The position numbers and the translations under genes are program-made. Source: Vibrio tapetis subsp. tapetis (GTDB taxonomy: Bacteria; Pseudomonadota; Gammaproteobacteria; Enterobacterales; Vibrionaceae). From it: a stretch of 64,000 nt of DNA. Numbering within the stretch: position 1 is the first letter of the stretch; each line of letters opens with the position of its first letter. Where the stretch lies: NCBI RefSeq assembly GCF_900233005.1, contig NZ_LT960611.1:1984001-2048000 (forward strand), in the 5' to 3' direction. The notes below the pieces were generated by a model, which made no database searches, had not been told where the DNA came from, and worked only from the letters and a program-made list of their open reading frames with translations. Below, piece by piece: positions 29,591 through 61,802 of the stretch.

Positions 29591-29683
29591 TGTTTGCAAC
29601 ATAAGTCAACATAAACATCGACCACATTTCAGTCTGTTACAGTCCACTTTGCAACAATAGTTAGCATAAGATTGCAGCAATAG
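29591..29683. mobile_element. Transposon end, CRISPR-distal side (RE)
   Basis: Starts TGTTTGCAACATAAGTCAA. TnsB-type repeats: TTTGCAACATAAGTCAACAT at 29,593 on and TTTGCAACAATAGTTAGCAT at 29,648 on, plus a weaker TTGCAGCAATAG at 29,672. These match the tnsA-side end repeats in sequence and inward orientation. Confidence 0.85.
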
Positions 29684-29845
29684 ATTTCAAATTTTTCATG
29701 CGACAAGAAAGCTGTGTTGTAACTTTACTACAGTTTGTCCTATTCATATTTGTGCATCACATTTTGAAACCAATAAGGATCACACTTTAACTGTTCATTT
29801 CAACTCAGCTTGGATAGGGATGAGGTGATTAGTTGCAACAGCCCC

Positions 29846-29870
29846 TTAAAAAGCCCGCGATTGCGGGCCT
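29846..29870 (-). terminator. Immunity-gene terminator
   Basis: GCCCGC and GCGGGC pair around GATT. On the - strand it is followed by TTTTT, 34 bp past the SUKH gene stop. Confidence 0.85.
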
Positions 29871-29903
29871 TGAACTACAAAAATTTATTGTTACAGCTAC
29901 AAA

Positions 29904-30353
29904 TCAATCTTCAAATAATATTTCTAGCAACAGATCGAAGCTATCAGCCACTTCATAAATATTACCTAAATAATTTCTACTTCTTTCATCTTCAGCATCC
30001 CAAAAAACTATCTTTCCATGTTTAACCTCAGACAATACTAAACAAATTAAATCGTTTGTATCGCTACACGCAATTGGGATATATGAATCAGGCAACCTAC
30101 TTTTATATTCATTGTAATTCCAGTTTAAGCAGCTAGATTCAACCTCCCTGTCTATGCCAAAGAAAACCTGGATGCCTCCAATTTCCTCAGAATGCCCTTT
30201 TATAGGAAACGCATCTGGAGATGGACTGCCGCCGTTAAACTTTAATAGAAATTCTTTATAGCTAGTAGGAAACTCTAACTCAGTATATAAAGCAATTTCC
30301 TTTAACTCTGATTCAGATATAGATCTACCAGGGTTATCAATTGTATCTAACAT
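29904..30353 (-). CDS. SMI1/KNR4 (SUKH) immunity protein
   Basis: A 149-residue acidic protein of the SUKH superfamily, which supplies immunity proteins in polymorphic toxin systems. The family core is visible: ISESELKEIALYTELEFPTSYKEFLLKFNGGSP, then PIACSDTNDLICL and GKIVFWDAEDE. It starts 14 bp after the stop of the Rhs toxin on the same strand, the standard toxin-immunity order. It should neutralise the WHH nuclease tip. Confidence 0.9.
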   Translation of the reverse strand: MLDTIDNPGRSISESELKEIALYTELEFPTSYKEFLLKFNGGSPSPDAFPIKGHSEEIGGIQVFFGIDREVESSCLNWNYNEYKSRLPDSYIPIACSDTNDLICLVLSEVKHGKIVFWDAEDERSRNYLGNIYEVADSFDLLLEILFED

Positions 30354-30367
30354 AGTATCACTCGCTG

Positions 30368-33300
30368 TTATCCTCCAGAAAATCCACCATCGTGACCAGT
30401 TTTCGTATGAATATCACGCGGGACAAGCTGCATCGTTGTACCATCTTGATGGTGATGCCAAACATGGCCTTCTGGGGTCTTTTTATACCCTCCAGCTTCA
30501 TTTGCAGCTTTAACATCTTTCCTCCGACTACCAGTAAATTCGATTTCCACATCCTTTTTCGAAACACTGGAGAAATCTGGATGTCCTTTTTTGTCGAAAG
30601 GAATACCTGTTTTCGGATGCTTGCCGCCAGCCAAATGCCCGTTGCGCCTTGCTCTCTTTGTAACCCTATCATACACACTCTCAGCGACTTCACCCCCTAA
30701 TTTTAACTTACGCTCGACTATTGCAATGCCAATTGAGGTGGCGACACTCGTACCGAATGCGCCAGCCGATATTTTGTCATTAGAATACAGGTCAAGGGTG
30801 TCCGATATGTCATGCATTGCATCATAACTACCGACGACAACTGAGCCCAAACCTGTAAAGCTGAACGCTTCTACAAATGCGTCCGTACAGGTAGAGCCAA
30901 CGCACTTATCTGAATTCCATCCTTGGATAAAACCAAGGTCATTGCCCCAACTGATATCGACACTGCGTGAGGGAGCGAACCCATTCCCATTTTTATAGGT
31001 GGTATAGCCATAATTCGCATGGGAGCCGTCACTATTGCCATTATTGGTATAACTGCCGCTCCCTCCACCACTGAAGAAGTCCGTCACGCTGTCCCATGCA
31101 TCACTCGCCCATTCGGAAAACGTTTTGTAACCCGTTGGGTCCGTGTACTTCAACGGATTATTCCAAACGTACGAATACCGGTTAAAGCTGTTGGTTTCGA
31201 ATGGCGCTTGGATGTAAGGGTCTGCGCTGGTAAATCGGCCCAGCTCGGGGTCGTACACTCGGCCATTCATGTGGATAAGGCCCACTTCAGTGATGGCTTC
31301 GTGCCCTGTGTAGCCTCGGTTGGTTATCGCTTGCTGCAATACTTCTGCGGGGTTATTGCTGTTACGCCAACTGACTTTTCGCTGTTTCCCCCAAGTATCA
31401 TAGCTTCGGCGCTCTACCACGTTGGCGTACCCATCGGTGATTAAATCCACGGAATTGAGCGCGTCGTAGTGCAGGTAACGCACTTGTTTTTGTTTTGGGG
31501 TGTTATTTGCGTTTCGGGTTTGGGTGTTCAGGGCAATCAGTTTGCCATCGGCGTAGATGAAGTGCTGATGCTGCACTTCGCCTGTTTGGGTATCGGTGAC
31601 TTTTTCATAGCTTTTACCGAAGTAGAAGGTCTCTTTGCCGTCACTGGTTTTCTTTCGGTAACGGTTGTGGTTGGCATCGTAAAAGAATTCGACCTTTTTG
31701 CCGTTACGGGTAATGCTCTCTGGTTTATTGAACGCCGTCCAAGTCAGAGTTCGCTCGTCGGTTTGAGCGCCCAATTTCCATGCGCGTTGCATGTTGCCCG
31801 CCGCATCATAAGCGTAATTGAGCCCATTCGCTTGCGTAACCGCATGTGGCCCTGCGTTCTTTTTACTGTATGTATAACCGCCAATGCCTGTCTTGAACTC
31901 GATGTTGCCTACACTGTCATAGCGGTAATCAAATGCACGAGTTAAGTCGGTATTGTTGACCCCGTGCCTTGTTTTGTCGGCTAAGGCAAGGGTATTTCGT
32001 TTCACTCGGTCTAAGGCATCGTACTGCCAGTTGTCCGTGATACCCAACTCTTCATCAAAACGGGATTTGACGTTATTGTGCTGATCATAACGGTAGTGAA
32101 GAGAACGGATCTGTTTTCCAGAATTTGTGGTTTGGATCCGCGCCGCACGGCCCGTATTGGCGTTGTGTTCATACGTATTCACCAACCCATTGCCTAACAC
32201 TTCTGAAAGAGTGTGGTTATAGGCATCGGTATCTCGACGCTGCCAATAGTAAATGTATTGCTGGCCGCCAACAGACGCTTCTAACTCCGCTTGTGTCAGC
32301 ATCAATTGCAACTCATCCGCTTGACCAAATTGAGTGGGCGCGTTGTCGCAAGCTGCCCAGCGGTGAGTTAACGAAACGTGTTTTCCGCCGACATTTTTTG
32401 CATCTTGGCAATAAATACCACTCAGCTGTGCAACCTGTTCCGAAAGACTGATCAGCTTGTCTGCTAAACCGGCAAAGTGTTTTTGCTTCTGCGAGGCCAA
32501 TTTGGCGGCTTGGTCCAAATCATCGGCGGTATAAACCAACGCTTGCTTTGTTTTATCATCCGGTTGTGCGACAAAGACATCGTGTTCACTGTATAACGAA
32601 CGCTGACCGTTACTGGCTGTTTTCACCACAAAGTCGTGCTCTTGCGTGGTCGCATGAGCAGAAAACTCCGCCTTAGTCACTGATATTAGTGACGTGCTAA
32701 AAACTCGCTGGGTTCCACTGTTGTGTGAATACCTGGAATCGAGGCGGTAAATGGGCCCTTTAACCACCGCTTCAATAGGAAAAGACGTCGGCACACCGAT
32801 GATCACCCACCCCATCGGTTTTAGGTAACAATCTCCCTCGGTATTACACCACTGGGCAAATTTGTGTTCATTACCCAGCAAGCCGACAGAAGCGGCGTCC
32901 AGTTGATGCTCGTTGATGGTTGAGTTTCGCAACTGTTGCGCTTTTTGTTTAAAATCGACCGCCTGTGTTTGATATCGCTCTGCACGGGTAAGGTAGCCGT
33001 TGGCTTTCTCTAAGGCTAAGCGCAGAAGCTGACGAATTTCATGAATAAATTTATCGTTGGAATAGTCATCGTCGGCCGCACTTCGTGGGCTTCGCACCGC
33101 CGATTGATAGCCGTAAGGGTTATATACGTACTCGACCTCAAGTCGCCCTGTGTTGTTTGCGCCCCCGTTTGGCCTGATTTCTCGTTGCAGGCGCTCAAAA
33201 CCATCATAAGAATACCCGGTCGCCAGTCGTTCTTGACCACTGGACACCGTCACTTGCTGAGTTAAGCCATTCGCATCGTAGGCGTACTCGGTGGTATTAC

Positions 33301-36300
33301 CATGTCCTGTGAAGCGAGATAACGTCCCTTGCGCACCATTTTCATCATAAACCCAACGTGATGTTTGCCCGCCTTCTTGCTGAGTGAGCTTACGGCCAAG
33401 GGAGTCATAAGTGAGCCGGGTTTCGGCCCCATTCACATCACGTTTATAGGTTAATTCACCCAGTGCGTTGTATTGATAATGCCAAACGCCCATATCGGGA
33501 TCATTGAGATCACTTCGGAAACCGAGGCTGTCATAACGTACATGGGTCGTATTGGATTTAGAGTCCGAGCTGCTGCGAAGTTTGCCATCTGGATAGTAAC
33601 GATAGGTTTGGAAAGCGCCGAGTGGCTCATTCTTACGCAAAATGTAGCCCATGACATTGATCGTAACGTCTCTCTTTTGCATTTTGGCATCAGTCGTCTC
33701 GGTTTTAAGCCCGTCATATCGGGTGGTGAACCGTGACCTATTGCCGTTTGTATCCGGCTCTGACTTACTTATTTCGCGGTTTAACACGTCGTAGCTAAAG
33801 GTGACAAATGGCGGCGTTTTCTGGGTTCGAATGAAGTAAGGACGCGTCACTTGGGTTTTTCGGCCGCTGATATCCCAATGGGTATCCGTGCTCACCCACT
33901 GCCCGTTAAACCCCTGATGTAACTGGCGAATCTCCCGCCCAGCATAATCATAATGGGCAATCTTCTTACCGCCTTCCGCAGGGCTGTAGATGGTGCAACT
34001 GACGGTTTGGGGTAAGGCATAAGAACACGCATCCCCCAATTTGTAATCTGTCGTGCTTGTGTTCCCTTTGCCTGGCAAGGTTTCCTGAGTTACACGTTCA
34101 AAACTGTCATAACCAAATGTGCTGATTCGATTTTTTAATGCGCTTGTTGTCTCAAACAAAAGACCACGTGCATTGTATTTAACGCCTGTACGGTGTCCTT
34201 TCGCATTGACTTGATATGTTAAATCTAGGCCATTTGGATCGTATTCATATTTTGTTATTCTTGGAGTAAACCCCGTGCCTGATAAGGTCTCACTCTTAGT
34301 ATTCCCCCATTTATCATACTGCCAAGCTATGGAGGTCGATTTAGAGGCGAGGGCACCGCTTTCATAGTCCGAGCCTAATACGGTCTGCTGCTTCATAAAA
34401 CCGGTGTTATGGTAATCAAACTGCGTTTTAGTTGTGCGGCTTAAACCTGTGCTGTTATCTTTTAGCACTACCGTTTTTATTTCAGGGGCAAAGAGTGTCC
34501 AAAATTGACCGCCACTTTCCGTCACCAATTTAGGGACAGAAGAAGCCAGTTGCTGTAACTCCCTTTTGCCTCCCTGATTTGTGAATGACATCTGCCCGCA
34601 AATATGGAGATTGGCGCTATCAAATTCTGCTTTCGACGCCGTGCTCAAATGACCCGTGACCACGCTTCGGTCATCAAGGGTTTGTACCTTGGGGGTCGAT
34701 AATCGGTAATAATTGGGGTTTCGCTTCGCTAGGATAGGTGTGGTAACCGGCATCCCTATGAGCACAATCAGATCGTTGGCTTTAAAGTAAACCTCACCAT
34801 TCTCACTGCAGTACCGAGTAAAACCGGCTTTAAACTGAGCCAGCTCAGGTAACAAGTGAGTCGAATTTCGGTCCAATTGATAAACGGTTCTATTCTGGTG
34901 TTGACCGGGGGACAGGTACTGATTGACGGTGGTTTGGGTGTAGCTGCCCGCGTGTGCTTGCTCACCGGTAAACTGACGGACTTCCTTTGTCACATTGCCG
35001 AATCTATCCACATTTCGAGTGATGGTTTCTATCCGCTGTGCAATTTGAGTACCCAGTGTAAAACTTTTTCTCTGCACCTGATTGGCATAGGTTTGATAAT
35101 AGTCTGCGTCATAACCGGGAAAGGTTTTACTGTGATATTGATACGTCGCCTCTGACGTCTTTTTCCCATTTTTAATGACTCGCACTGATTTAACACTTCC
35201 GGCCAGTGTTAAGTCTTCTTGTTCAAATTCTGTTTCCGTGCGGGTGGTGACGGCGGCGATTTCCGTTTCTGTGACCGTTGCAAAGCCGAGAAAACCACCG
35301 CCTTGTAAATGAGAAAGCGCCCCAGCGTAATGGTATTGATAGTGCGTTTTGGCGTAACCTTGCGGCTGTTTTTCTACCGTATAAACCAGCTCGACGGCTG
35401 GGGTGACAGACTGATACGGGAATGACTTAATTGCCGAGCCTTGAGTATAAACGTTGCTATCCGTCGCGGGTAAGTAACGAATGGTGTAACTGACGCCATG
35501 TTCGGTGACTTTTGTTAGCTTATCTTGCTGATGCGCGACAGAAAGCTGCCTATCTACGTTGGCGGTATTACTGCCACGCGAAAGTATGTCTACCCACCCA
35601 TCTCCGTTGATGTCTTGCAACGAATACACTTCTTGGCTTGCTTCGTAGAGAACGGTTTCACTGATCTCACCGAACAGGTTCTGATAGAACGTATTCTTTG
35701 CCACCAACTCTGGGTACCCATCGCCATTAATATCAGCGAAGTTAATGCGATCTGTGCTTTCGACCTTGAATTTCGTTTTGGTCGGTTCGGTAAACGTGTT
35801 TCCTGTAAACAAGTAGACATATAAGTGATCACTCCCGCTCGATGGCCCCATGATCACATCTAGATAGCCATCGCGGTTAACGTCTGCCATGCTTTTGAGC
35901 TCTAAACTTCCCGCAGAGGGCAATGCACCCGATAGACCGCCGGAAATTTCATAGGCATAACCCCCGTTGACCACATCAAAACGATGTTTGTCATCAATAC
36001 CATCGCCATTAAAGTCAGCGATTGAAAATCCCGAAATGGTTTCAGTGATCCCATCCCCGTCGATGTCACCCGCATTCAAACCATTCGATGAGTATTGACA
36101 AGAATTGCCAGTACATTGAGAAAACTGACAATATGGCGTGAATTCACCTTTGCCGTTAACATAGCTTGATGCCAAGTTGTACTTACACTGGTTCAACGCT
36201 AACTTAGGCTCGCCAAGCTTACCTTTTAGCGTAAATGATGCAACGTTACTGTGTGTGTTTCCTTGAAGATCTTTAACTTGGTATTTGCCCGTTTGGGTAT

Positions 36301-37345
36301 TTTCAGACAGGACGCCATACGCGGTAGCCTGACCATCTCGATCCTCATCGTAAAAACGTGGCGCCTTTAATCCCGTGCTTTGAAACCCAGACCATTCAAC
36401 GATTGGACGGCTCTGCCAATCAAACAGGATAGAGGAGGAACATCCCTCTAGTGTGCAGTATTGTATGCGTTCGAGTAAGGTTCGTGAGGTTGCAGAAGAC
36501 ACTTTATGAGTGAGCTGATAGGTGCCGACTTTAACGTGAGCGGCATCAAATGTGTTGATGGTAGACATGAGTCTGTCTTTGACAATCTGGTCCCCACCTA
36601 AATAAAAGCGGCGTACATCGCTTCTTGTTTTGTATTCAAACGTCACCTTCCCGCCAGCATAAACGACGCTTTTTATGAGTGGCACCCCGTTCTTTGTACC
36701 AAAATCGCTGTACTGGTACTGAATGGTATTCTCACCAGAAGCATCGGTATCGGAATTCAGTAGCCATTGATATGCATGCTTACTTTTGGGTAACGTTGCT
36801 CTCGCTTCCGCTTTATGGCCATATTCGCGCACGCGCCCATCTTGCGTCCACACTTTAAAAAATTCGGGGCCGCCTGCATTGCGGCCATATGAGACGACTT
36901 TTGCGTAACCATTTTTCTTCGTGCGATACTCGGTTAAATTGCCACCATCGGAACCGGTAATCGCAATCAGTCTTTGCCCATCAAGACAGTAACGATCTTC
37001 CGCGTCAAATCGAATTCCGCCTCTTTGGTGATCGGTTATCAGATCCTGTCCACAACGCGTAATGGCAGAAACCCCACGCAAACTCCACCCCATACCGAGC
37101 ACGTCACTATTACCATTACTGCGATAAGCCAACCCGAGTTGTGGTTGATGAGCTGCTCTCCCCGGCGAAACAGTTATTGGCAACGTATAATTCGCCTGCC
37201 CACCAGAAGTTTGGTATTGACCAGAAAGGACAATTCGTGCGTCCCCACTGGGAGAAGAAGCGATCGCATGTGGGCCATTCACAACAAAAATAAATACCGC
37301 TGTGAGCTTCAACAGTATATTCAAAATAGGGCGTAATACTTCCAT
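30368..37345 (-). CDS. Secreted Rhs/YD-repeat polymorphic toxin
   Basis: A ~2325-residue toxin delivery protein. N-terminal signal (LRPILNILLKLTAVFIFVV), then an SpvB/TcdB-like module (GQANYTLPITVSPGRAAHQPQLGLAYRS), FG-GAP type repeats (DINGDGYPELVAKN, DINGDGWVDILSRG), many YD repeats and the Rhs core end (GRFTSADPYIQAP, NPLKYTDPTGYK). The C-terminal tip has HVWHHHQDGTTMQLVPRDIH, the signature of WHH nucleases of the HNH/Endo VII superfamily. A SUKH immunity gene follows. The ATG at 37,345 fits the signal best; in-frame starts up to 37,375 exist. It is carried as cargo inside the transposon. Confidence 0.92.
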   Translation of the reverse strand: MEVLRPILNILLKLTAVFIFVVNGPHAIASSPSGDARIVLSGQYQTSGGQANYTLPITVSPGRAAHQPQLGLAYRSNGNSDVLGMGWSLRGVSAITRCGQDLITDHQRGGIRFDAEDRYCLDGQRLIAITGSDGGNLTEYRTKKNGYAKVVSYGRNAGGPEFFKVWTQDGRVREYGHKAEARATLPKSKHAYQWLLNSDTDASGENTIQYQYSDFGTKNGVPLIKSVVYAGGKVTFEYKTRSDVRRFYLGGDQIVKDRLMSTINTFDAAHVKVGTYQLTHKVSSATSRTLLERIQYCTLEGCSSSILFDWQSRPIVEWSGFQSTGLKAPRFYDEDRDGQATAYGVLSENTQTGKYQVKDLQGNTHSNVASFTLKGKLGEPKLALNQCKYNLASSYVNGKGEFTPYCQFSQCTGNSCQYSSNGLNAGDIDGDGITETISGFSIADFNGDGIDDKHRFDVVNGGYAYEISGGLSGALPSAGSLELKSMADVNRDGYLDVIMGPSSGSDHLYVYLFTGNTFTEPTKTKFKVESTDRINFADINGDGYPELVAKNTFYQNLFGEISETVLYEASQEVYSLQDINGDGWVDILSRGSNTANVDRQLSVAHQQDKLTKVTEHGVSYTIRYLPATDSNVYTQGSAIKSFPYQSVTPAVELVYTVEKQPQGYAKTHYQYHYAGALSHLQGGGFLGFATVTETEIAAVTTRTETEFEQEDLTLAGSVKSVRVIKNGKKTSEATYQYHSKTFPGYDADYYQTYANQVQRKSFTLGTQIAQRIETITRNVDRFGNVTKEVRQFTGEQAHAGSYTQTTVNQYLSPGQHQNRTVYQLDRNSTHLLPELAQFKAGFTRYCSENGEVYFKANDLIVLIGMPVTTPILAKRNPNYYRLSTPKVQTLDDRSVVTGHLSTASKAEFDSANLHICGQMSFTNQGGKRELQQLASSVPKLVTESGGQFWTLFAPEIKTVVLKDNSTGLSRTTKTQFDYHNTGFMKQQTVLGSDYESGALASKSTSIAWQYDKWGNTKSETLSGTGFTPRITKYEYDPNGLDLTYQVNAKGHRTGVKYNARGLLFETTSALKNRISTFGYDSFERVTQETLPGKGNTSTTDYKLGDACSYALPQTVSCTIYSPAEGGKKIAHYDYAGREIRQLHQGFNGQWVSTDTHWDISGRKTQVTRPYFIRTQKTPPFVTFSYDVLNREISKSEPDTNGNRSRFTTRYDGLKTETTDAKMQKRDVTINVMGYILRKNEPLGAFQTYRYYPDGKLRSSSDSKSNTTHVRYDSLGFRSDLNDPDMGVWHYQYNALGELTYKRDVNGAETRLTYDSLGRKLTQQEGGQTSRWVYDENGAQGTLSRFTGHGNTTEYAYDANGLTQQVTVSSGQERLATGYSYDGFERLQREIRPNGGANNTGRLEVEYVYNPYGYQSAVRSPRSAADDDYSNDKFIHEIRQLLRLALEKANGYLTRAERYQTQAVDFKQKAQQLRNSTINEHQLDAASVGLLGNEHKFAQWCNTEGDCYLKPMGWVIIGVPTSFPIEAVVKGPIYRLDSRYSHNSGTQRVFSTSLISVTKAEFSAHATTQEHDFVVKTASNGQRSLYSEHDVFVAQPDDKTKQALVYTADDLDQAAKLASQKQKHFAGLADKLISLSEQVAQLSGIYCQDAKNVGGKHVSLTHRWAACDNAPTQFGQADELQLMLTQAELEASVGGQQYIYYWQRRDTDAYNHTLSEVLGNGLVNTYEHNANTGRAARIQTTNSGKQIRSLHYRYDQHNNVKSRFDEELGITDNWQYDALDRVKRNTLALADKTRHGVNNTDLTRAFDYRYDSVGNIEFKTGIGGYTYSKKNAGPHAVTQANGLNYAYDAAGNMQRAWKLGAQTDERTLTWTAFNKPESITRNGKKVEFFYDANHNRYRKKTSDGKETFYFGKSYEKVTDTQTGEVQHQHFIYADGKLIALNTQTRNANNTPKQKQVRYLHYDALNSVDLITDGYANVVERRSYDTWGKQRKVSWRNSNNPAEVLQQAITNRGYTGHEAITEVGLIHMNGRVYDPELGRFTSADPYIQAPFETNSFNRYSYVWNNPLKYTDPTGYKTFSEWASDAWDSVTDFFSGGGSGSYTNNGNSDGSHANYGYTTYKNGNGFAPSRSVDISWGNDLGFIQGWNSDKCVGSTCTDAFVEAFSFTGLGSVVVGSYDAMHDISDTLDLYSNDKISAGAFGTSVATSIGIAIVERKLKLGGEVAESVYDRVTKRARRNGHLAGGKHPKTGIPFDKKGHPDFSSVSKKDVEIEFTGSRRKDVKAANEAGGYKKTPEGHVWHHHQDGTTMQLVPRDIHTKTGHDGGFSGG

Positions 37346-37349
37346 GGCG

Positions 37350-37766
37350 TTATTTGTTCTCATTAATTGCAACAAGAGTGTTAAGGCGAGTGCGCAGTTC
37401 GGTCAAGTTAACTTCTGGGGATTCATTTTCGGGTTTCATTACACCTAATCCAATATTCAATTGGTTAGTCTCTTCTTCAGCATTGACGGCGATCAATTGC
37501 TGTAAACTAATCACTGGTGATGGGTATTCATTTATTGAAACATTCCCATCAGATTCAGCCAATACTAAATTAGAATACTCTGAACGATATTCCAACGTCA
37601 TCAGTTCTAAATAAAACAATTTAGAACAAATAAAGATTGATATCGCAGCGGTTACAAAGAAGACACACTTCCACATACAAACACGAATAAATGAAATAAG
37701 ACGAGACTTTAGCGTTTTAACACGTAACATCAAACAAATTGGAGTGGATTGTGATTCATACCTCAA
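37350..37766 (-). CDS. Small membrane protein upstream of Rhs
   Basis: A protein of up to 138 residues with one membrane segment (about residues 33-52, WKCVFFVTAAISIFICSKLF) and a C-terminal ~85-residue domain that ends NLTELRTRLNTLVAINENK. No family is recognised. It lies directly before the Rhs gene (4-bp gap) on the same strand, so it is probably co-transcribed. A role in secretion or anchoring of the Rhs protein is a guess based on position only. Confidence 0.65.
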   Translation of the reverse strand: MRYESQSTPICLMLRVKTLKSRLISFIRVCMWKCVFFVTAAISIFICSKLFYLELMTLEYRSEYSNLVLAESDGNVSINEYPSPVISLQQLIAVNAEEETNQLNIGLGVMKPENESPEVNLTELRTRLNTLVAINENK

Positions 37767-38602: not shown

Positions 38603-38623
38603 ATGAATATACGGATCGGAAAT

Positions 38624-38998
38624 ATGAAAAAAATTATTTTGGCGATAATGCTAATCGTTGTAGCACCTTTTTCGCTAGCACAAGAATCGACAGGCCCTAT
38701 TCAAGAGCTAAAAATATGTGCGACTGGTGATAAAGGTATCGGTCAATGGATACGCTTATTACAATTTAAAGTTGACAACAAATGGTACTCAACATTGGCA
38801 GATGCATATGCAGATCCTAGTGCAGATGCGGATAATCCACTAACTACGAGTATAATAATGATGGCATTTTCTCAAAATCTAACTATCAAAATACGTGCTA
38901 CCAACAAGAGTTGGGCTCCCTTACACAGCCGATGTGGAATCACTAACGGAACGGTTTTTCATGGTAACAACGGTGATCACATCACAATCACTCGCTAA
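38624..38998 (+). CDS. Small secreted protein, unknown
   Basis: A 124-residue protein with a clear Sec signal (KKIILAIMLIVVAPFSLA, cleavage after AQ or nearby). The mature part has two Cys (KICATGD and HSRCGITNG) that could form a disulfide, and a strand-rich pattern LTIKIRATNKSW. No family is recognised with confidence. An alternative ATG at 38,603 would delay the signal. It stands alone between the Rhs locus and the second ffs copy and is the only + strand gene in this part of the element. Confidence 0.65.
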   Translation: MKKIILAIMLIVVAPFSLAQESTGPIQELKICATGDKGIGQWIRLLQFKVDNKWYSTLADAYADPSADADNPLTTSIIMMAFSQNLTIKIRATNKSWAPLHSRCGITNGTVFHGNNGDHITITR

Positions 38999-39257: not shown

Positions 39258-39262
39258 CTAAT

Positions 39263-44790: not shown

Positions 44791-44799
44791 ATGTCACCA

Positions 44800-44826: not shown

Positions 44827-44874
44827 TATTACAGCTAACTCTATTAAATCAAATCGATTAAGAGCAAATTGTGA

Positions 44875-52399: not shown

Positions 52400-52410
52400 A
52401 AATTCGCATA

Positions 52411-52491: not shown

Positions 52492-52501
52492 GATGACGCT
52501 C

Positions 52502-52651: not shown

Positions 52652-52727
52652 AATTTTTCCTTTTTAAATTAAGTAATAATGCGTCTTCGCTAAGACAAGG
52701 TAATAATAACTAACGAGGTGGGGACAG

Positions 52728-53093
52728 ATGGGGACACCGAAAAAACAAAAGCAAATTCAGCAAGCTCTGGACGCTTTAGGTTGGAGTCACCTCACATTTG
52801 CAGACGTTCTTTACGATGAATTATATGCTGATGAAAATGATGATTTTAAAGACACTGATAAAGATGAAATTCGAAAACTAGCGCAGAACCTAAAAAAACA
52901 ATTGCAACGTGAATCCACTTCAGAAAAGCGGCTAGATATTTATCTACGAGTACTATTTGAGCATCCGGCTTATCAAGCTTTAAATTTGGATTCAGTGCTA
53001 CCAAAGCATGTAGCTCACAGCTGTCTTTCCGATGAATTATCGCAACGATTGACTCAGCTATCGTCAAATTTAGATCGTTCAAGTAAAAGCTAA
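52728..53093 (+). CDS. Hypothetical protein (121 aa)
   Basis: A 121-residue, highly charged, helical protein (KKQKQIQQALDALGWSHLTFADVLYDELYADENDD...). No Cys, no membrane helix, no recognised family. It is divergent from the 49-residue gene and convergent with hsdR, with a shared terminator after it. Similar small proteins of unknown role are common beside SMP-like genes in marine gammaproteobacteria, which I cannot verify here. Confidence 0.6.
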   Translation: MGTPKKQKQIQQALDALGWSHLTFADVLYDELYADENDDFKDTDKDEIRKLAQNLKKQLQRESTSEKRLDIYLRVLFEHPAYQALNLDSVLPKHVAHSCLSDELSQRLTQLSSNLDRSSKS

Positions 53094-53117
53094 AAAGGCC
53101 GCAAATAATGCGGCCTT
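53093..53117. terminator. Bidirectional terminator before hsdR end
   Basis: AAGGCCGCA and TGCGGCCTT form a 9-bp stem around AATAA, between the convergent 121-residue gene and hsdR. Confidence 0.85.
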
Positions 53118-53144
53118 ATCGTATTTCAATTAGTTCAACAATCA

Positions 53145-55595
53145 TTATGCAGACTGATAAATTGCCGCTTCCAACTCGTGTACAGCCTCTAGATATTGAG
53201 GCTTACCACCAAACCCTTTCTTAATGATCTCCAGCGGTCTTCCCATCTCATCAAAAGGTTTTACTTTAAGTACGTGGATATTTTCAATTTCCTGCACACC
53301 TTCATCTGCATATTTATCAAGTAAGTTGATTAACACCTGCCGCGCAGTGTCGCCATATTTGGTGAAGTAGTTACGCTTCTTCACGTTGTCTGCACGTTCT
53401 TTACGCGTAAGAGCAGGCTGATCATAAACCACATGGCAAATCATATCGAATGGGTCCATATCTTTACCCACTTCATCTTCAAGTGCTTCCCATAAAATGC
53501 CTGCTTCGGCCAACTCATCTATGATGACTTGCTTTCGATCTGAGTCATTCCAGCGTTTGGTAAACTCATCCATAGAGGCAAACTGCTTCACCATGGTTTT
53601 ACGGGTGTAATCTTTGAAAGACTCTGTGACTAGCTTGCCATCTAAATCATAGTATTGAACACGCTCGGCCAATGCTTTCACTGCCACACCATTTACGTGA
53701 AATTTACGCACTCGGTTTTCATCATCCCAATCATCATTTCCTGCTGCGCCACCTTCCGATGACCCGCCAAAATCATCACCATAAGTCGGCTCTGGCTCTT
53801 GGATTGAATCAGGATCGATATCTTCATCACCAAATGGGTTATCGGTGTCAACATCGTCAACACCATCGATGATGTCATCTAAGTCCTCATCATCTTCAAA
53901 CTGTTCTGGTGTGGTGACTTTCACGCGCTCTGGCGTGCCGTCAAAACGTTCATCTGCGAACAGTTCTGTGGCTTTTTTGAAATCTAGAATCGTAAACCAA
54001 AGCTTGCCGTATTTATCGTCTATTCGTGTACCACGGCCAATAACCTGCTTGAACTTGGTCATCGATTGAATGCCTTGGTCAAGCACAACAAGTTTACAGG
54101 TTTTGGCATCTACCCCCGTGCTCATTAGCTCTGATGTTGTCGCTATGACTGGGTATTTCTTTTTCGGGTTTATGAAGTTATCAAGCTGGGCTTTGCCTAT
54201 TTCATCATCACCTGTGATCTTCATAACGTACTTTTCATTTTTCTTAACTTGATCAGGGTTCAAGTTAACCAGTGCTCGGCGCATTCTTTCTGCATGATCA
54301 ATGTCATTACAAAAGACAATGGTCTTTGACATTGGATCGGTACGCTTTAAATAGTTTGTGATGGTTTGAGCAACAAGCTCGGTACGCTCATCTATTACCA
54401 TAGTGCGATCAAAGTCTTTCTGGTTATAGATACGGTCTTCTATCACTTCACCATGTTTATCGACTTGCCCTTTGGTTGGCCGCCAACCTTGGACGTCGAC
54501 ATCAATATCCACACGCACGACTTTGTAGGGGGCTAAAAAGCCATCCTCGATACCTTCTTTTAGGGAGTAGGTATAAACAGGGTCACCAAAGTATTCAATG
54601 TTCGATACTTCATCGGTTTCTTTAGGGGTTGCAGTTAAACCCACTTGAGTCGCAGACTTAAAGTACTCTAGAATCTCGCGCCATGCGCTGTCTTCTGATG
54701 CACTGCCACGGTGGCATTCGTCAATGACAATTAAGTCGAAAAAGTTGGGATCTACTTGCTTGTAGGCTTTTTGATGTTCTTCAGGCCCAGTGAGTGCTTG
54801 GTACAATGCAAGATGAACTTCAAAAGCAGGGTCGACGGTTCGCCCTGTAATCTTAGTCATCGCTGAGCCAAATGGCTGAAAGTCATTAGTTTTGGTTTGA
54901 TCGACCAATATGTTGCGATCAGCTAAAAACAGAATTCGCTTTTTAGCTTTCGCTTTCCATAATCGCCAAATGATCTGAAATGCGGTGTAAGTTTTGCCTG
55001 TGCCCGTTGCCATCACCAGTAGAATTCGGTCTTGACCTGCAGCTACCGCTTCAACGGTTTTGTTTATCGCTTGTAACTGATAATAACGCGGAGATTTGCC
55101 ACTGCCATCATCATGATAATCTTGGGTGATCACGGGTAGATGTTCGGTTTTGTAGCCTTTCCAAACGCAGTATTTGTCCCAGAGTTGCTCTGGAGTAGGA
55201 AAGTCTTCTAAACGAATTTCAGTTTCTAGTTGAGCTTCGTTGGTTAGATCTCGGAAAATAAACCCATCACCATTTGAAGCAAAAACAAATGGCACTTCAA
55301 GCAAGTTCGCATAGTCCATGCCTTGCTGCATGCCTTTACCAACTTCGTGTTTGTTAGCTTTGGCTTCGACCACAGCTAAGGGCATGCTTGGCTTATGGTA
55401 GAGCACAATGTCGGCTGATTTTACTTTCTTACGAGCGGCAGCTTGCCCACGAACGATGACTTTACCATCACGCAATTTTACTTCTTGGCGAATTTGCGTC
55501 ATATCATCCCAGCCTGCATCTTTGATCGCAGGGAGAATAAATTTTGTGATGATGTCGGTTTCGGTTAGTTTTGCTTTGTTAATGTTCGCAACCAT
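53145..55595 (-). CDS. hsdR: Type I restriction endonuclease subunit
   Basis: An 816-residue HsdR motor/nuclease. The N-terminal PD-(D/E)XK nuclease ([20 protein letters not shown]) is followed by a superfamily-2 helicase: Walker [18 protein letters not shown] box VIDECHRGS, motif III GLTATP, motif [12 protein letters not shown]. An acidic linker ([27 protein letters not shown]) precedes the C-terminal HsdM-binding region. The length is at the shorter, EcoEI-like end. Good codon use and no frame break. Confidence 0.95.
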
Positions 55596-55747: not shown

Positions 55748-57127
55748 CTATATAAATGCCGATATCACTCTTTGCCTGAATTGACCTAAGCGCAGTTCAT
55801 CACAAGACGACATTAAATTTATGGTGCTTTCGCTTGATGGCATCATTGAATCATCCCAGTTAACTAAGTGCCGTTGAGTCAAAGTCGATAGACTTCTTTC
55901 TGTATTATCTAGTAATCCTCGTTCGTTAATTGGGAAAGTATTTTGCTTATCAAAGTCCTGTTTTATATATAGACATGTATCAGGAATATCTTGTTCAATC
56001 CGTTCAGAGAATCCAATAAGGCTCTCTTCTGCGAAGGTGAACAACCATGCTTCTTGATTTGGTGAGTCGTTTACTCTCAATATTCGCCCTAAGACTTGTC
56101 TAAAATACAACTCGGTTTTAACCGCGCTCATGTGACAGCATACCTGCAGCCGAGGGATGTCTGTTCCTTCACTGATCATTCCTACGCTCACAATCCACTG
56201 CGTGTCGCCATGCCGAAAGGCTTCTATCTCTTCAAGTGGGGATTCATGATGGTAGGTAACAATGCACGCCGATTGACCAAACTTTTGTATCAGCATCGCT
56301 TGGATGGATTTGGCGTGCTTTACCGAAGCAGCTACAACAAGGCCGCCAGCCTGTGGGGATTGCCGACGAATATGCTCGAGTTTATTACAACCTGATTGCA
56401 ACAAATAACTCATGGCATCTTCATTATGAATTACCGTTTGATATGAGATGTCTGACTTTTGAATTAAGTCGAGTATTGACGAGAATGACAGCCTTTCGCC
56501 ACCTTCGGTAATGCTAAGGTGTTCGTTATCAACCAAGGCAATTTTCGGGGCTCGGCAAACTAACTCTTCAATGGCTTGCTTTAAGCCATACTGAAAATCG
56601 CACACCAATTGACCGTCAGGATCTGTGTACTCCGCCATTGCAATAGGAACGGAATCTGAGCGCCACGGGGTTCCAGAAAGCGCTAACGTATATTTAGCTA
56701 AGCCTTGAATTTTGGTAAGCACTTGCTCACCCCAAACATTAGATCCGCCATGTTCATCGCTTGCGCAATGGTGGATTTCATCAAAGACAGCAAACACTCG
56801 GTATTTTTCGACAGTTCTCCAAAAGTCATCATCCATAAAGCGGATGGTTTGATAGGTGTATGAAACGCCAAGTGAGCCCAGCCCACCATTAAATGAACAG
56901 CCAAGCTTCCAAGCAAAGGTTTTCTTAATCCCTTCTGCTACGGTAAGTGAAGGAGAAAAACACAAAATTAAATCAACTTTGTCTTGCTCAATTAATCGCT
57001 TTGCAAGCTCCGCAGCCATCACTGTTTTGCCAGCACCAGGTGTCGCTTGGCAAAAAAAATGTGACTGATCATAGCTATATTTCTTCAATGCTGCTTCAAC
57101 ACACTGAGATTGCCAGAGCCTTAACAT
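55748..57127 (-). CDS. DEAD/DEAH-box helicase-like protein
   Basis: A 459-residue superfamily-2 protein related to UvsW/ERCC3-like helicases. Walker A CQATPGAGKTVMAA, DEIH box AVFDEIHHC, motif III LALSGTPWR, and motifs V-VI in ISEGTDIPRLQ and FRQVLGRILRV. No nuclease domain is seen. It overlaps the preceding 191-residue gene by 7 bp, and that gene starts beside the double Xre operator, so the pair is probably under Xre control. Role in the transposon unknown. Confidence 0.85.
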   Translation of the reverse strand: MLRLWQSQCVEAALKKYSYDQSHFFCQATPGAGKTVMAAELAKRLIEQDKVDLILCFSPSLTVAEGIKKTFAWKLGCSFNGGLGSLGVSYTYQTIRFMDDDFWRTVEKYRVFAVFDEIHHCASDEHGGSNVWGEQVLTKIQGLAKYTLALSGTPWRSDSVPIAMAEYTDPDGQLVCDFQYGLKQAIEELVCRAPKIALVDNEHLSITEGGERLSFSSILDLIQKSDISYQTVIHNEDAMSYLLQSGCNKLEHIRRQSPQAGGLVVAASVKHAKSIQAMLIQKFGQSACIVTYHHESPLEEIEAFRHGDTQWIVSVGMISEGTDIPRLQVCCHMSAVKTELYFRQVLGRILRVNDSPNQEAWLFTFAEESLIGFSERIEQDIPDTCLYIKQDFDKQNTFPINERGLLDNTERSLSTLTQRHLVNWDDSMMPSSESTINLMSSCDELRLGQFRQRVISAFI

Positions 57128-57696
57128 GAGCTCACCATCGTACCCGATGTTTTGAGAGCTTTAGACAGCGCATTAATTTTGCCAAGTAACCTTGCGGATC
57201 GTTCTTTTGCCTCCGAAAATAACGGCAAGAAAGCATCGCGATTATTGGGGAAGCGTTTAATAAGAGATTGATATTCTTCCACTTCACCAAGGATGATCGC
57301 CAGCTCCCCCTCATGTTGGCTTTTCTCTTTCAGCAACACTGTAAACTCGAATGAGTGCAATTCAGTTGATTGTGAAACTTTATGTTCTTTGCTTTTGGGA
57401 GCATGAGTAACAGAGGTACTGGCACTCTTTGCAACTCGAGGAGTACAGGTCATTTGAAGAAACAAATCTGTTTTTTGGTATCTTTTATTGCGAGCAGAAC
57501 CATTAGCAACGAGCCAGCCTTTACGTTCAAATGAAAGTATTTGCCTATAAACATACTTTCTTGCTTCATCTAGATCGGTATGTTCTTTTGCTACCAACAT
57601 AAGAGCATCTCGCGCTTCAGTAACTAAAAAGTCATCCATCTCTTTTTCTATCAATAGGTTAAACATGTAGGCGTTGATTTTTTTTGATTGCTTCAT
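57121..57696 (-). CDS. Winged-helix/coiled-coil protein, unknown
   Basis: A 191-residue protein. The N-terminal ~80 residues look like a winged helix (DDFLVTEARDALMLVAKEHTDLDEARKYVYRQILSFERKGWLV), and the last ~80 are a predicted coiled coil (KEKSQHEGELAIILGEVEEYQSLIKRF). It is divergent from xre with two palindromic operators between, and overlaps the helicase gene, so the two act together. Possibly a DNA-binding partner of the helicase; inference from context. Confidence 0.7.
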   Translation of the reverse strand: MKQSKKINAYMFNLLIEKEMDDFLVTEARDALMLVAKEHTDLDEARKYVYRQILSFERKGWLVANGSARNKRYQKTDLFLQMTCTPRVAKSASTSVTHAPKSKEHKVSQSTELHSFEFTVLLKEKSQHEGELAIILGEVEEYQSLIKRFPNNRDAFLPLFSEAKERSARLLGKINALSKALKTSGTMVSSC

Positions 57697-57797: not shown

Positions 57798-58103
57798 GTG
57801 CAAAAAAACAACCCAATCCCAGAGAGGCTCAAAGCAGCTCGTAAAAAAGCCTGTATCACCCAAAAAGATCTAGGGGTGAAAATTGGTATGGAGCAAAGCT
57901 CTGCAAGTGGCCGAATGAACCACTACGAAAAGGGCCGACATGTGCCAGATATAGGCACGCTTGAACGTATGGCCGATGAGTTAAATGTGCCACTGAATTA
58001 CTTCTTCTGTAAAAGTGATTTAAGCGCAGAACTGGCGTGTGCGATTGATAAGATGAGTGATGAGGAGAAAGCTGCATTACTGAAATCGTTAGCTTCTAAG
58101 TAG
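57798..58103 (+). CDS. xre: Xre-family regulator of the transposon
   Basis: A 101-residue Cro/CI-type HTH protein: IPERLKAARKKACITQKDLGVKIGMEQSSASGRMNHYEKGRHVPDIGTLERMADELNVPLNYFF spans the HTH (about residues 7-65), followed by a short acidic helix. The start is a GTG; the nearer ATG is in another frame. Two palindromes lie upstream and a third copy precedes tniQ. In I-F3 CASTs, Xre-family regulators are known to control element expression, and the guide in particular. It is the only gene on the + strand here and is convergent with tnsC. Confidence 0.88.
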   Translation: MQKNNPIPERLKAARKKACITQKDLGVKIGMEQSSASGRMNHYEKGRHVPDIGTLERMADELNVPLNYFFCKSDLSAELACAIDKMSDEEKAALLKSLASK

Positions 58104-58111: not shown

Positions 58112-59185
58112 TTACGCTTTCAACCCACCTATGCTTAGCAGTAAATTCAACGGTATTGCATCGCTGAATCGCGGTGGGAGTATTTTATCTTCCGCTGATA
58201 TAGCAGATGTGTTGTATGTAGAGCTGGCTTCTAATTGATGTACCTTCAGCGAGCTAAGGTTGCAGGTAAATGGATTATCCAAATAAGGAAACTTAAAGGC
58301 AAAAGTTCTCTCTAGCACCCCACTATCGATCGTCTCTCTACCTTCTTTAAAACTTATTAACATTGCATCTTTTAAGAAATGCTTGAGTTTCCGACATTCC
58401 CCATTACACACTGAAAAAAGTGGGTAAAGTACGTCATTTGAAGTTAATCTCGGCGCTTTTTGATAGCCCATTCTTTTTGAAAGTCCCGCTACAAACTGGG
58501 CAAAGTGTTTCTTCTGATCTGGGTCAACGTCATACTGCGCACTTGTTGTTTTCGTCGCTTTTGTTATCTTCAGCAACTTGAAATAATTAAGCCCCCGACG
58601 CCAACTCAAACGAGAATTCCATTGCGGTTCTTCTGCCAATACATTGGCATAAGGCAATCCAACGAGCACAAAAGACACACCAGCCTCTTCACTGATATAC
58701 TTAAACGTATTTGCTATGGCTTGCCTTTCCTCGGCTGTTGAAAACTCAACTAGCTCTTGAACTTCATTGACAATAATAAGTTCGACCGACTTCCTCTTTA
58801 AATGTCTTACCACACTCTCTCCTAACGCGATTTCGTTGCGTCTACGAGTTGAACGCCCGCCGGATTTAGAATTTAGATCAACCAAGAACTTATTCAGCGT
58901 GTTTTGCTCATTTACTCGGCTCGGAATTCGAGTACTTAACACGGTTTGAGTTGACCAACTTGAACTTGAACTTGATTCGAAACGCTTAAGGTAGTTATTA
59001 ATCAGAGCTGTTTTTCCGCTTCCCGTTTCACCTGTTAGCAAAAACGATTCGGGCTCTCCCCCTAGAGACTGATTAAAACGAAGCTGATCAAATATTGAAT
59101 AGATCTCTGTTATTTCAGGGTATTCAATAAAGCTGGTCTCGTATTCCATAAGCTGTTTTCGCTGTTGGGAAGTAACATTGAACAT
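58112..59185 (-). CDS. tnsC: TnsC AAA+ regulator
   Basis: A 357-residue AAA+ ATPase that bridges Cascade-TniQ and the TnsAB transposase. Walker A is LLTGETGSGKTALINN near residue 50. The Walker B region reads ELIIVNEVQEL, with Asn where Asp is common; the following Glu is present. The sensor segment FVLVGLPYANVLAEEPQWNSRLSWRR fits TnsC. Its ATG overlaps the tnsB stop (TGATG), so translation is coupled. Confidence 0.93.
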   Translation of the reverse strand: MFNVTSQQRKQLMEYETSFIEYPEITEIYSIFDQLRFNQSLGGEPESFLLTGETGSGKTALINNYLKRFESSSSSSWSTQTVLSTRIPSRVNEQNTLNKFLVDLNSKSGGRSTRRRNEIALGESVVRHLKRKSVELIIVNEVQELVEFSTAEERQAIANTFKYISEEAGVSFVLVGLPYANVLAEEPQWNSRLSWRRGLNYFKLLKITKATKTTSAQYDVDPDQKKHFAQFVAGLSKRMGYQKAPRLTSNDVLYPLFSVCNGECRKLKHFLKDAMLISFKEGRETIDSGVLERTFAFKFPYLDNPFTCNLSSLKVHQLEASSTYNTSAISAEDKILPPRFSDAIPLNLLLSIGGLKA

Positions 59186-61080
59186 CAGTAACCCTCGATA
59201 TCATCTAGGTCTTCATCATTTGTCGATAGGGCGTGACTTAGTATTTGTTGCTCTGTTGGCTGGTCATTACTCGGCTTACTCGCAACAATCGACGTTGGGC
59301 CATTGCTACCTACATCTCTGAACTTGGCTAACTTGGAAGTATTTCCAGTTTTAGATGGGGCCTGCTTCTTGTTTCGAGACCGACTCAATCGCTCTGTTTC
59401 ACCTTCAATACGGCTTTCAATATACAAGTGAGTCTCAGCTAACGCCTCTTCATTTTTTAGCTCTCGCGTATTCAACCTTCGTACCTTTTGAATTCGTTCG
59501 TGCTCAAATAGCGAAAGTCCTTTCGTATAGCCGCTATTGTCTACCGCTGGAACTTTGATATATCGTTTTTCTGGTTCCAAAAAAACGTAGATTGAACTGA
59601 TATCTGATGGGTCTGTTTTTGTTTTAACAAATAATTTGCCGTCTGATTTAACAGGGGCATATTTTCGATACTCTATAAGCTCGTCAGATTGATAGTGTAG
59701 GTTATGAAGACGAATACCTGAAATCCCTATCGTGCGCTCCTTCAAAAGCCCTAATTCAGTTCGTAAAGCCAAAATTTCATCATCATGATAAGCATTAGGT
59801 CGCCACTTTGACTCGTGCCACTTATGATATGGAATTGCACGTTCTCTAGCATCTGGGGACATATGGTAGTAATCAACTACCCATTTATGCAGCAATTCTA
59901 GAAATACTGACACCCGAACAACCGATTCTTTTTTTGGGTCATAGTCCTTTAGCTGAGTAGGATTAGTGAATGTTTTACCTGGTAAAGAGTTGGTCAATCC
60001 TTTGTTCAATTGATCGAACAACTTTTCTATACCCGTCTTTCTCCACGGTTTTGCCGCTTGGCTATATTGGATATCGGTCACAAATGGCCTTAGGGAATCT
60101 TCTAAACTGTCTGTCCAGAACTCAGCACCGTTATCAACAACTAGGTAATCAATTTTCCCATGACATGGCCAATCATTCTTTATGGATGGGTAGCTATCTT
60201 TTAACCAGCTTTTATCTAACAAGGTATTGAGTAATGCCTTTCGTACAGAGTCAAAACTAGGGTCTCTAAAGTTCACGCTTAACCCAACGACGCATTTGCT
60301 AAACCGATCATAGAGCATGGTTAAGTAAGGCCGTCCTAACGGTACATCCAACTCATCGTCAATCAATATAACGGGAAGTGGTGTATGATCTATTTCGACA
60401 TATTCCATTGGTTTTGTCGCTGCAATTTGCTGCCCTACAGAACGAAACTCTCTATCTGCATATCGCTTTCCATACCGGGCAACGGCCACTTCATAAGGAG
60501 GTAATGAATTGACACGATCATAAAAGGTTCGTTCACTAATAGGATCAATTTCCCCTTCAACGATGGTCTGATTGATTGTTATTACTCGACTTTTGTAATA
60601 TCGAAATGCCTCTGCGATGCTTAAACGCTCTTTAGTCAGGTACTTTTTTTCAATCGCCTCATCAACCAATACCTGAGAATCTGAAGATTTATTTCTGTTA
60701 CCTTTTTATGCATGCTTTGGGATAAGTGATTTGATATCTCTACCTGATTCAAAATAGAGTTTTTTCCAACCAGCCAATACTCGCCAGCTTGGTGGTTTTA
60801 GGCTTAGTGTTTGCTCTACAGTACCTAAAATTGGGATTAGATTCTTTTCTGTCCAGCCACCCTCAAGTCGTTTCTCTACAAAATTAATCACTTTGATACG
60901 ACGGAGAGTTTCCTTTTGTACTTCTGAAGGGAAAGTGTCCAAAGAAGGAGGATTGATGTCATTTTCATCAAATACATCTTCAGGAATTTGAAGCTGATCA
61001 GCCGCTTCTTCTTCAGAAGCAGCCATTTCGTCAAAAAGGCCAAAGAATTCTTCAAATTCATTTGCCATTCCTAGCACCAA
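59185..61080 (-). pseudogene. tnsB: TnsB transposase with in-frame stop
   Basis: DDE transposase that cuts the 3' ends and joins them to target. The frame runs from 61,080 to 59,185 except for one TAA at 60,706-60,708: the N-terminal 124 residues end IPKHA, then after the stop the same frame continues KGNRNKSSDSQVLVDEA. Total would be about 631 residues, near the usual I-F3 size. The catalytic core is whole: Asp in YVEIDHTPLP, Asp in LVVDNGAEFW, Glu in TGIEKLFDQLNKG. A TTG restart at 60,669 would lack the N-terminal DNA-binding part. Nonsense mutation, read-through or sequencing error are all possible. Confidence 0.9.
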
Positions 61081-61706
61081 ACATAGCTATTAAGACCAAA
61101 GTCGTTATTTCTTAAGTCTGTTTTGATCCTACCAGAAGAGAGCCAACACAAGGAATGAATGAGAGTCTCGTGCTCTGGTAAGCCGAAGTACTGCGAAACT
61201 TCAAACAACTGCACTTTTTGTTTGCTTTGAATGAATTGCAAAACACTTTTTTGTACTTGTGTCACCGTGTGAAGACCTGAATACCGATGCAGGAGCTTCA
61301 AGTTATTGAATATTGGATTTATTCTTATCTGCTTTTCAGTCACTAAGATAAGTCGTTTTCCATGTTCTTCTAAAGCCGTACGCTGTTTTTCTGCGAATCG
61401 TGCTCTAAAGTCTGGTTTTAGAATTTGGCTTGAGTGCTTCACTTCAACAAAAGAAGATTGTTCTTTTTGGTCGCAGACCAAGAAATCGGGAGTGTAACGA
61501 CACTTACGGCCATTGAAATGATAGTGATAACCGTATGGTTGGGAAGTGTATTCTTTTACGTCTGGGTTATATTCGAGATGGAAACAGAAATCAAATTCTA
61601 AAACAGAGAGGGTTCGTACGACAGCATCGTTTTTCAAGCTCATGAACTTGCAGATGTTGTGAACGTGGGAAGATTTTTTGGTTTGGTCGAACATAGTGCG
61701 CATCAC
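61071..61706 (-). CDS. tnsA: TnsA endonuclease
   Basis: A protein of up to 211 residues that cuts the 5' strands at the transposon ends so the element moves by cut-and-paste. The restriction-type fold is visible: Glu in VLEFDFCFHLEYNP, Asp in CRYTPDFLV and ExK in SSFVEVKHS. The C-terminal part is the TnsC-binding helical region. The annotated GTG start could be replaced by ATG codons a few residues later. It overlaps the tnsB start by 10 bp and lies 96 bp from the element end. Confidence 0.92.
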   Translation of the reverse strand: MMRTMFDQTKKSSHVHNICKFMSLKNDAVVRTLSVLEFDFCFHLEYNPDVKEYTSQPYGYHYHFNGRKCRYTPDFLVCDQKEQSSFVEVKHSSQILKPDFRARFAEKQRTALEEHGKRLILVTEKQIRINPIFNNLKLLHRYSGLHTVTQVQKSVLQFIQSKQKVQLFEVSQYFGLPEHETLIHSLCWLSSGRIKTDLRNNDFGLNSYVWC

Positions 61707-61707
61707 A

Positions 61708-61729
61708 TTTGTTGTAAACCTACAACAAA
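61708..61729. promoter_or_regulatory. Palindrome at tnsA start
   Basis: TTTGTTGTA and TACAACAAA are perfect inverted arms around AACC, directly before the tnsA start codon. It could be an operator or an RNA hairpin that masks translation start; its sequence differs from the Xre operator. Confidence 0.55.
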
Positions 61730-61740
61730 AAATAGACTAT

Positions 61741-61802
61741 GCTGACTTATAGTGCAAATTTGCTAACTTCTTTGCAATTTATGCTAAGTTATTTTGCAAA
61801 CA
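61741..61802. mobile_element. Transposon end, tnsA side (LE)
   Basis: Reading inward from 61,802 on the - strand: TGTTTGCAAAATAACTTAGC. Three TnsB-type repeats begin TTGCAAAATAACTTAGCA, TTGCAAAGAAGTTAGCA and TTGCACTATAAGTCAGCA, spaced about 20-22 bp. They match the far-end repeats at 29,593 and 29,648. Confidence 0.88.

Follow-up and report, generated by a model that had tools for sequence, protein, structure and literature searches.

CRISPR-associated transposons (CASTs) are regarded as mild elements, which insert beside, and not in, essential genes. The type I-F3 CASTs (Tn6900 type) found at ffs, the gene of the signal recognition particle (SRP) RNA, are the described systems closest to the element studied here. 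This element occupies positions 29588-61805 of a 64,000-nucleotide stretch of the Vibrio tapetis subsp. tapetis genome (contig NZ_LT960611.1), and the whole of that stretch is called the window below. I-F3 elements have four main sites, among them ffs, and a TC protospacer-adjacent motif (PAM) is used by 96.6% of those at ffs (PMC12774636); the same four sites are given in PMC11406308. SRP-RNA CASTs of Vibrio (PMC6360697) and the window element are alike in Tns and Cas genes, ends, TC PAM, ffs-side insertion, restriction-modification cargo and Xre-type regulator, and the published end of the V. cholerae TP at SRP-RNA is nearly the same as the tnsA-side end in the window (PMC6360697). Differing from these CASTs, the window element has a stop codon in tnsB and carries a copy of ffs after its CRISPR array.

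This carried gene, named ffs2, and four further ones in a second genus of Vibrionaceae are the main subject here. With a probability of roughly 0.52, we read them as evidence that certain CASTs that home to ffs bring along an SRP RNA gene which resists their guide, is kept by selection and probably safeguards the supply of SRP RNA. According to this reading, an I-F3 CAST homed to ffs with a guide of about 20 nucleotides (nt) and entered between the gene and its terminator, at a distance of 48 bp from the protospacer, bringing its own SRP RNA gene with a promoter-like site and a terminator, poorly matched by its own guide. The carried gene would be transcribed and work in the SRP, and it would be kept because it safeguards SRP RNA supply at a disturbed attachment site while itself being a poor target, a natural 'home-and-rescue' arrangement. 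A wider claim, to which we give somewhat less than an even chance, is that some I-F3 CASTs are natural home-and-rescue elements with a diverged, guide-resistant, working copy that is constant behind the array in one lineage and perhaps co-transcribed with it, the trait having been gained at least twice in Vibrionaceae.

Along the minus strand, the order is a GGDEF gene, native ffs (ffs1, 61911-61815; RF00169, 70.6 bits), the pentamer CCATT (61806-61810), the right end (61805-61706, inner boundary approximate), tnsA, tnsB, tnsC, a divergent Xre-type regulator gene, the genes of a 191-aa protein and a RadD-like helicase, hsdR, hsdM, hsdS, three more cargo genes, tniQ, cas8/5, cas7, cas6, a short CRISPR array, the second ffs locus (39512-39125), a 131-aa open reading frame (ORF) on the opposite strand, the genes of an Rhs and a SUKH protein, the left end (29800-29588, inner boundary again approximate), a second CCATT (29583-29587) and then the native ffs terminator (29554-29581). 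The two element ends match each other (TGATGTTTGCAA on the tnsA side, TTGCAAACATCA on the distal side). The 5-bp direct repeat, a target-site duplication (TSD), and the displaced terminator show that the element entered between ffs and its terminator; the element begins 48 bp beyond the end of the 20-nt protospacer (61854-61873, PAM TC). In a related genome without a TniQ match (G167), the ffs site is uninterrupted and has one CCATT, which represents the empty site. An earlier note on this DNA, made from the letters alone, had called the element an I-F3 CAST with matching ends and ffs as its attachment site, and had suggested comparison with ffs loci of relatives lacking it. The assignment to class and site holds: the class is backed by the TniQ_IF, Cas85f, Csy3 and Csy4 protein models, and the attachment site by an ffs-matching guide with a TC PAM, the ends, the duplication and the empty site in G167. 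Its span of 29591-61802 fell 3 bp short at each limit. The second SRP RNA gene, the Xre-type gene and the approximately 20-nt length of the ffs guide had gone unmentioned. The GGDEF gene upstream of ffs (62037-63988) consists of two overlapping frames in the window (503 and 167 aa) and of one 654-aa frame in G167.

The ffs2 locus (39125-39512, minus strand; RF00169, 69.0 bits) follows directly after the array and comprises a promoter-like site (TTGCAA-18-GATAAT, 39443-39414), the gene (39269-39365), a terminator hairpin (39231-39257) and a downstream segment. Rfam finds two SRP RNA genes in this genome, both within the window. Between ffs2 and ffs1 there are 13 differences over 97 positions, with no pair broken and four double compensations; under random substitution, as many pairs were kept in 14 of 2000 draws. 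The promoter hexamers are the same in both loci, with a spacing of 18 in ffs2 and 17 in ffs1, and the ffs2 terminator hairpin is intact as read from the sequence, though not listed by the motif scan. A GNAR tetraloop is a motif of SRP RNA; ffs2 and the carried copies described below match the SRP RNA sequence-structure profile and have GGAA or GGAG tetraloops.

We considered that ffs2 could be a recent duplicate of ffs1, which is not supported: the gene is of another core type, 86.6% identical to ffs1 and at most 92.8% to the native genes with which it was compared. Two copies would also result if two CASTs had inserted in tandem, or if the assembly had misplaced the chromosomal ffs; tandem CASTs at one site are known generally. 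The genome has one TnsB and one Cas7 match, the element has one right end and one left end with matching TSD, no second left end lies in the interior beyond one chance-like match in the Rhs gene, nothing is inserted between ffs2 and its terminator, and the same layout is seen in four other assemblies. We therefore regard this explanation as extremely improbable and, for tandem insertion itself, the retained ffs2 terminator and the single pair of ends lead us to reject it.

The surroundings of ffs2 point to its route of entry. The cassette consists of about 20 nt of GGDEF gene tail, the promoter-like site, ffs, the terminator and about 100 bp of downstream chromosome. It is 81-83% identical to the host's own split locus, which is the closest to its flanks, while the gene is mostly of the majority Vibrio type. 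In G167, an Rhs fragment (L088:59-1794), close to a contig end, is 97% identical to window positions 32075-33820 and lies just downstream of the empty ffs site in the same orientation. Hence ffs2, Rhs and SUKH probably entered as one chromosomal piece from an unsampled Vibrio; no donor was found among 227 Vibrio genomes, where the longest other match was 84% over 275 bases (G167). Among the Rhs matches compared, none except the G167 fragment lay close to ffs on the same contig, a comparison in which drafts split over contigs cannot be judged. The chromosomal flanks of ffs2 and the G167 fragment favour a serious rival for the window, namely passive capture: the GGDEF-gene tail, ffs, terminator, Rhs and SUKH of another Vibrio would have recombined in, with ffs2 as a passenger beside a useful Rhs toxin-immunity pair. 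That the sequence after the array terminator differs among most elements compared also agrees with it. Because ffs2, Rhs and SUKH probably came as one piece, we keep this explanation in the balance as an unlikely but real competitor. What it leaves unexplained is the second genus, where ffs follows the array in all four CASTs, without recognisable chromosomal flanks, and is conserved beyond the transposase genes. In our preferred reading, that of a selected rescue copy, ffs2 would likewise probably have arrived in an ffs-Rhs segment of another Vibrio, and its function in the window is suggested by analogy.

The second genus was represented by 18 genomes, from which 13 ffs loci were fetched. 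A CAST is present at ffs in four of them (G270, G272, G274 and G281), and a second ffs lies directly after the array in all four, and in none of the nine loci without CAST genes. TnsABC, TniQ and Cas proteins of these elements are 31-45% identical to those of the window. The carried gene is inside the element in each case, as judged from exact 5-bp TSDs and left ends of the form ...GGCAACA. A conserved stretch runs from the last repeat through ffs and ends about 8 nt past it, where variable cargo starts; the sequence after the gene contains no transposon end and differs among the four, except for a part common to G270 and G272. No chromosomal flanks were recognised around these carried genes. 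Mutual identity of the carried genes is 93-97%, against 76-92% for the tnsABC segments, and is the higher value in six of six pairs; between G270 and G272 it is 97%, compared with 89% for native ffs and 76% for tnsABC. Identity to the native gene of the same host is only 60-65% (34-39 substitutions), yet 29-31 of 33 pairs are standard in the carried genes, against 27 in the native ones. Random substitution kept a mean of 16-17 pairs and a maximum of 24-27 (2000 draws each). RF00169 scores are 59.5-64.4 bits for carried and 65.5-67.6 bits for native genes. By these measures the carried genes look like real SRP RNA genes under selection. Genome sizes in this genus range from 2.1 to 5.7 Mb, two members being very small, and one genome without CAST genes in the 20-kb stretch (G273, L170) has a right-end-like sequence right after ffs, a possible CAST remnant.

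The frequency of the trait was surveyed with Rfam in 329 Vibrionaceae genomes, one per species, under stricter filters that lose weak matches. At least one ffs match was obtained in 325, and two were obtained in five: the window's genome (G000), G270, G272, G274 and G281. Each of the five has its second copy within a CAST at ffs, immediately following the array. An exact-pattern search found G000, G270 and G272, and missed G274 and G281 because their carried tetraloop reads GGAG. In 36 other genomes of the window's own genus, one SRP RNA gene each was found. The first ffs search in relatives, by blastn, could miss diverged copies and was repeated with a profile and with Rfam. The profile search of 55 CAST loci, which are partly the same elements from two collections and do not all reach past the array, placed ffs after the array in the window's own locus alone; Rfam gave no ffs in 18 loci of the order (four Vibrio loci among them seen before), nor in 20 of the 29 other Vibrio loci L090-L118. 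Thus every one of the four elements sampled in one lineage has the second ffs, and Vibrio provides a single case. Against plasmids, the carried gene of G270 had no match and the window query matched 16 records, of which two lie on the array side and 14 align over 14-19% of the query, within the ffs gene. Among viral contigs, 42 pattern matches were obtained and none was confirmed.

In class 1 effectors every sixth nucleotide of the guide is flipped out (PMC12774636). The last spacer of the window array, ahead of a degenerate repeat, matches ffs over 20 nt (AGGCCTGGAAGAGAGCATCC); 18 of 20 positions agree with native ffs, and the two mismatches are solely at positions 12 and 18, which are flipped. 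At pairing positions, mismatches to the native and the carried gene number 0 and 4 in the window, 3 and 9 in G270, 4 and 9 in G272, 3 and 12 in G274, and 3 and 12 in G281. With window ffs2, three of them fall in positions 1-5; in the second genus, three or four per carried gene fall in positions 25-29. For a 32-nt guide of an I-F3a CAST, transposition drops as mismatches accumulate at positions 1-5 until it is lost, is strongly reduced by mismatches at 7-11, and fails altogether with mismatches at 25-29 (PMC12774636). Since the mismatches fall in positions that impair transposition of that CAST, the carried ffs should, by analogy, be a poor guide target. For window ffs2 the mismatch may have been inherited from the donor rather than selected. 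Special recoding of the ffs2 protospacer was examined and is weak: just pairs 8-87 and 43-50 leave a state fixed in native loci, one of them in the protospacer, as judged from 45 distinct native loci that are a subset of the 227 Vibrio genomes.

The same mismatches bear on another explanation, in which the carried ffs is a device of competition, attracting other ffs CASTs, repelling them by mispairing, or serving tandem landing. Cas7 at ≥63% identity is present in 49 of 227 Vibrio genomes, the window's included (fragments are counted, and a position at ffs is established for only part of the loci), which makes competition for ffs likely. Guides, however, match the carried genes poorly, which is unwanted in a decoy; window ffs2 is followed by an intact terminator, and no transposon end follows the gene in the four copies of the second genus. 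We consider such a device quite improbable.

Several observations weigh against a selected rescue gene. None of the 48 other Vibrio genomes with such a Cas7 has a second ffs (47 yield a single gene and G095 yields none), so that a spare is not needed for viability after insertion, and native ffs in carriers is undecayed (65.5-70.6 bits). The single promoter-like site of ffs2 does not exceed the number in shuffled sequences, which average 1.5. No such site was found before the carried gene in G270, where the scan is uninformative because none was found before the native ffs either; if promoters are lacking, the carried genes would have to be expressed by read-through from the array. Of the pairing mismatches in the window, four in all, those at ffs positions 42 and 51 are the majority state in other Vibrio. 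Finally, targets within the element may be protected by target immunity anyway.

If the rescue reading is true, insertion at ffs carries a cost to which selection has responded, and an essential host function may pass to the element, making loss of the element costly. A parallel exists in integrative elements which rebuild the 3' end of the tRNA gene at which they integrate, so that the target gene keeps its function; the present elements differ in carrying an entire second RNA gene, located away from the insertion point and, in the second genus, only 60-65% identical to the target. Synthetic home-and-rescue gene drives seek out an essential gene and bring along a version of it that resists their guide. 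The present elements differ from such drives in being natural, bacterial and transposase-based, without cutting of the target gene, and their rescue is predicted. They also lend themselves to a natural test of the way in which guide mismatches set target and spare apart. In the open-licence literature searched, we found no description of an ffs gene carried by a CAST.

The short guide is common to most Vibrio relatives examined. A last spacer of the approximately 20-nt form occurs in 45 of 54 other loci searched (19 of 25 named and 26 of 29 unnamed, with some elements in both sets). Named Vibrio loci found with Cas7 share identical array ends with loci of the window's genus (L013 and L117, L014 and L118, L025 and L090), which marks that genus as Vibrio. 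Among 30 tnsB loci, ffs is in view in 28, and the element starts 48 bp (26 loci) or 49 bp (two loci) past the 20-nt protospacer; a distance of 49 bp has been reported (PMC12774636). The four elements of the second genus have a spacer whose length, measured up to the following hairpin, is 32 nt; they begin 48-49 bp beyond a 32-nt protospacer, about 12 bp further from the gene. The short ffs guide is thus likely to be real, and we infer that it is read by a shorter Cascade. In a review, shortening V. cholerae CAST spacers in 6-nt steps is said to have 'little or no effect', apparently in the sense that integration was slight or absent (PMC10188703). Guides of 20 and of 32 nt, between which the insertion point shifts by about 12 bp, amount to a natural experiment on Cascade length. 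Type V-K CASTs have truncated homing guides, and are alike in reserving a short special guide for the chromosomal attachment site; they are of another CRISPR type, and in the window element the guide is the last array spacer.

Further regularities were noted in 22 Vibrio guides, the window's included (27 loci entered; five were dropped for want of a host ffs or of a guide). At the flipped positions 6, 12 and 18, 65 of 66 guide bases are mismatched to the host ffs, relatedness not being removed, and mismatches at pairing positions are rare (15 of 374). Positions 6, 12, 18, 24 and 30 mismatch the host ffs in all four 32-nt guides of the second genus. The flipped-position mismatches seem to exceed free drift and look like avoidance of a perfect match. 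Guide base 4 is the host's own ffs variant in 19 of the 22 elements, a level reached in 5 of 10000 shuffles, again with relatedness not removed; this agreement occurs although CASTs lack spacer acquisition. G at guide position 13 is found in the window alone among the 22, as in its host ffs.

The Cas genes are cas8/5 (41486-43582; Cas85f, 2.1e-285), cas7 or csy3 (40436-41479; TIGR02566, 3.6e-66) and cas6 or csy4 (39808-40422; TIGR02563, 1.7e-25), all on the minus strand like the array (39557-39689), which contains repeats at 39662-39689 and 39603-39630, a 31-nt spacer (39631-39661), the 20-nt ffs guide (39583-39602) and a degenerate third repeat (about 39557-39582). The fusion, cas7, cas6 and mini-array of the earlier note are all as it described. 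Its statement that cas1 and cas2-3 are missing stands genome-wide for cas1, with no Cas1 across the whole 5.73-Mb genome and positive results of the same search in 9 of 14 control genomes; for cas2-3, none was seen among the element ORFs scanned, no genome-wide search having been made. In G270, cas7 (L176:9468-10507) is broken into one ORF of 184 aa and another of 162 aa. A Vibrio plasmid has sequence (NZ_CP045341.1:66071-66270) that is 76% identical to the region around the window array, possibly owing to a plasmid-borne CAST.

Protein families likewise bear out the presence of tnsA (61071-61706; PF08722, 6.4e-11), tnsC (58112-59185; PF05621 TniB, 6.6e-19) and tniQ (43576-44790; TniQ_IF, 4.2e-150), all on the minus strand. 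The element is nevertheless not complete, as had been claimed, since tnsB (59185-61080, minus strand) is interrupted by an in-frame TAA (60706-60708) after 124 codons of its first ORF (61080-60706), the second (60669-59185) being in the same frame. TnsB is open in all 29 other loci listed (L120-L148), with frames of 547-684 aa, of which the 547-aa frame starts near a contig end. With the longer TnsB piece of the window as query, identity is 57-79% in 28 of these loci and 37% in one, which agrees with placement within the I-F3 clade; ffs adjoins the element in 26 of the 28. No second TnsB match was found in the window's genome. Because of this stop codon, and barring a sequencing error at that position, the element can probably no longer move.

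The cargo begins with the Xre-type helix-turn-helix regulator (57798-58103, plus strand; PF01381, 1.7e-8); the following genes are on the minus strand. A 191-aa protein without family (57121-57696) is followed by the RadD-like helicase (55748-57127; PF04851, with NF053632 below cut-off) and the type I restriction-modification genes (48505-55595; hsdR 55595-53145, hsdM 51800-50283, hsdS 50283-48505). Helicases had been described as a pair, which is corrected to one RadD-like helicase plus HsdR. Restriction-modification cargo is ordinary here, because V. cholerae SRP-RNA CASTs with such cargo have already been described (PMC6360697). Next are a 584-aa protein without family (46747-48501), a protein of PADLOC candidate family PDC-S11 (45739-46734; 1.8e-117) with a weak NucS-like match below cut-off, and a 205-aa protein without family (45111-45728). 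Between this cargo and tniQ, an operator-like 29-bp palindrome (44799-44827) is a possible operator of the Xre-type regulator. Beyond ffs2 are the 131-aa ORF without family (38603-38998, plus strand) and, on the minus strand, the Rhs/SpvB-TcdB-like protein with a WHH nuclease tail (30368-37375; PF03534, PF05593, PF14414) and the SUKH immunity-type protein (29904-30353; PF09346, 3.4e-18). Downstream of the carried ffs in the second genus, genes resembling cyclic-oligonucleotide-based antiphage signalling systems (CBASS) belong to the cargo in G270 (L176:13992-16867) and G274 (L163:4837-6150), with a SAVED-2TM effector and DncV-like or SMODS nucleotidyltransferases.

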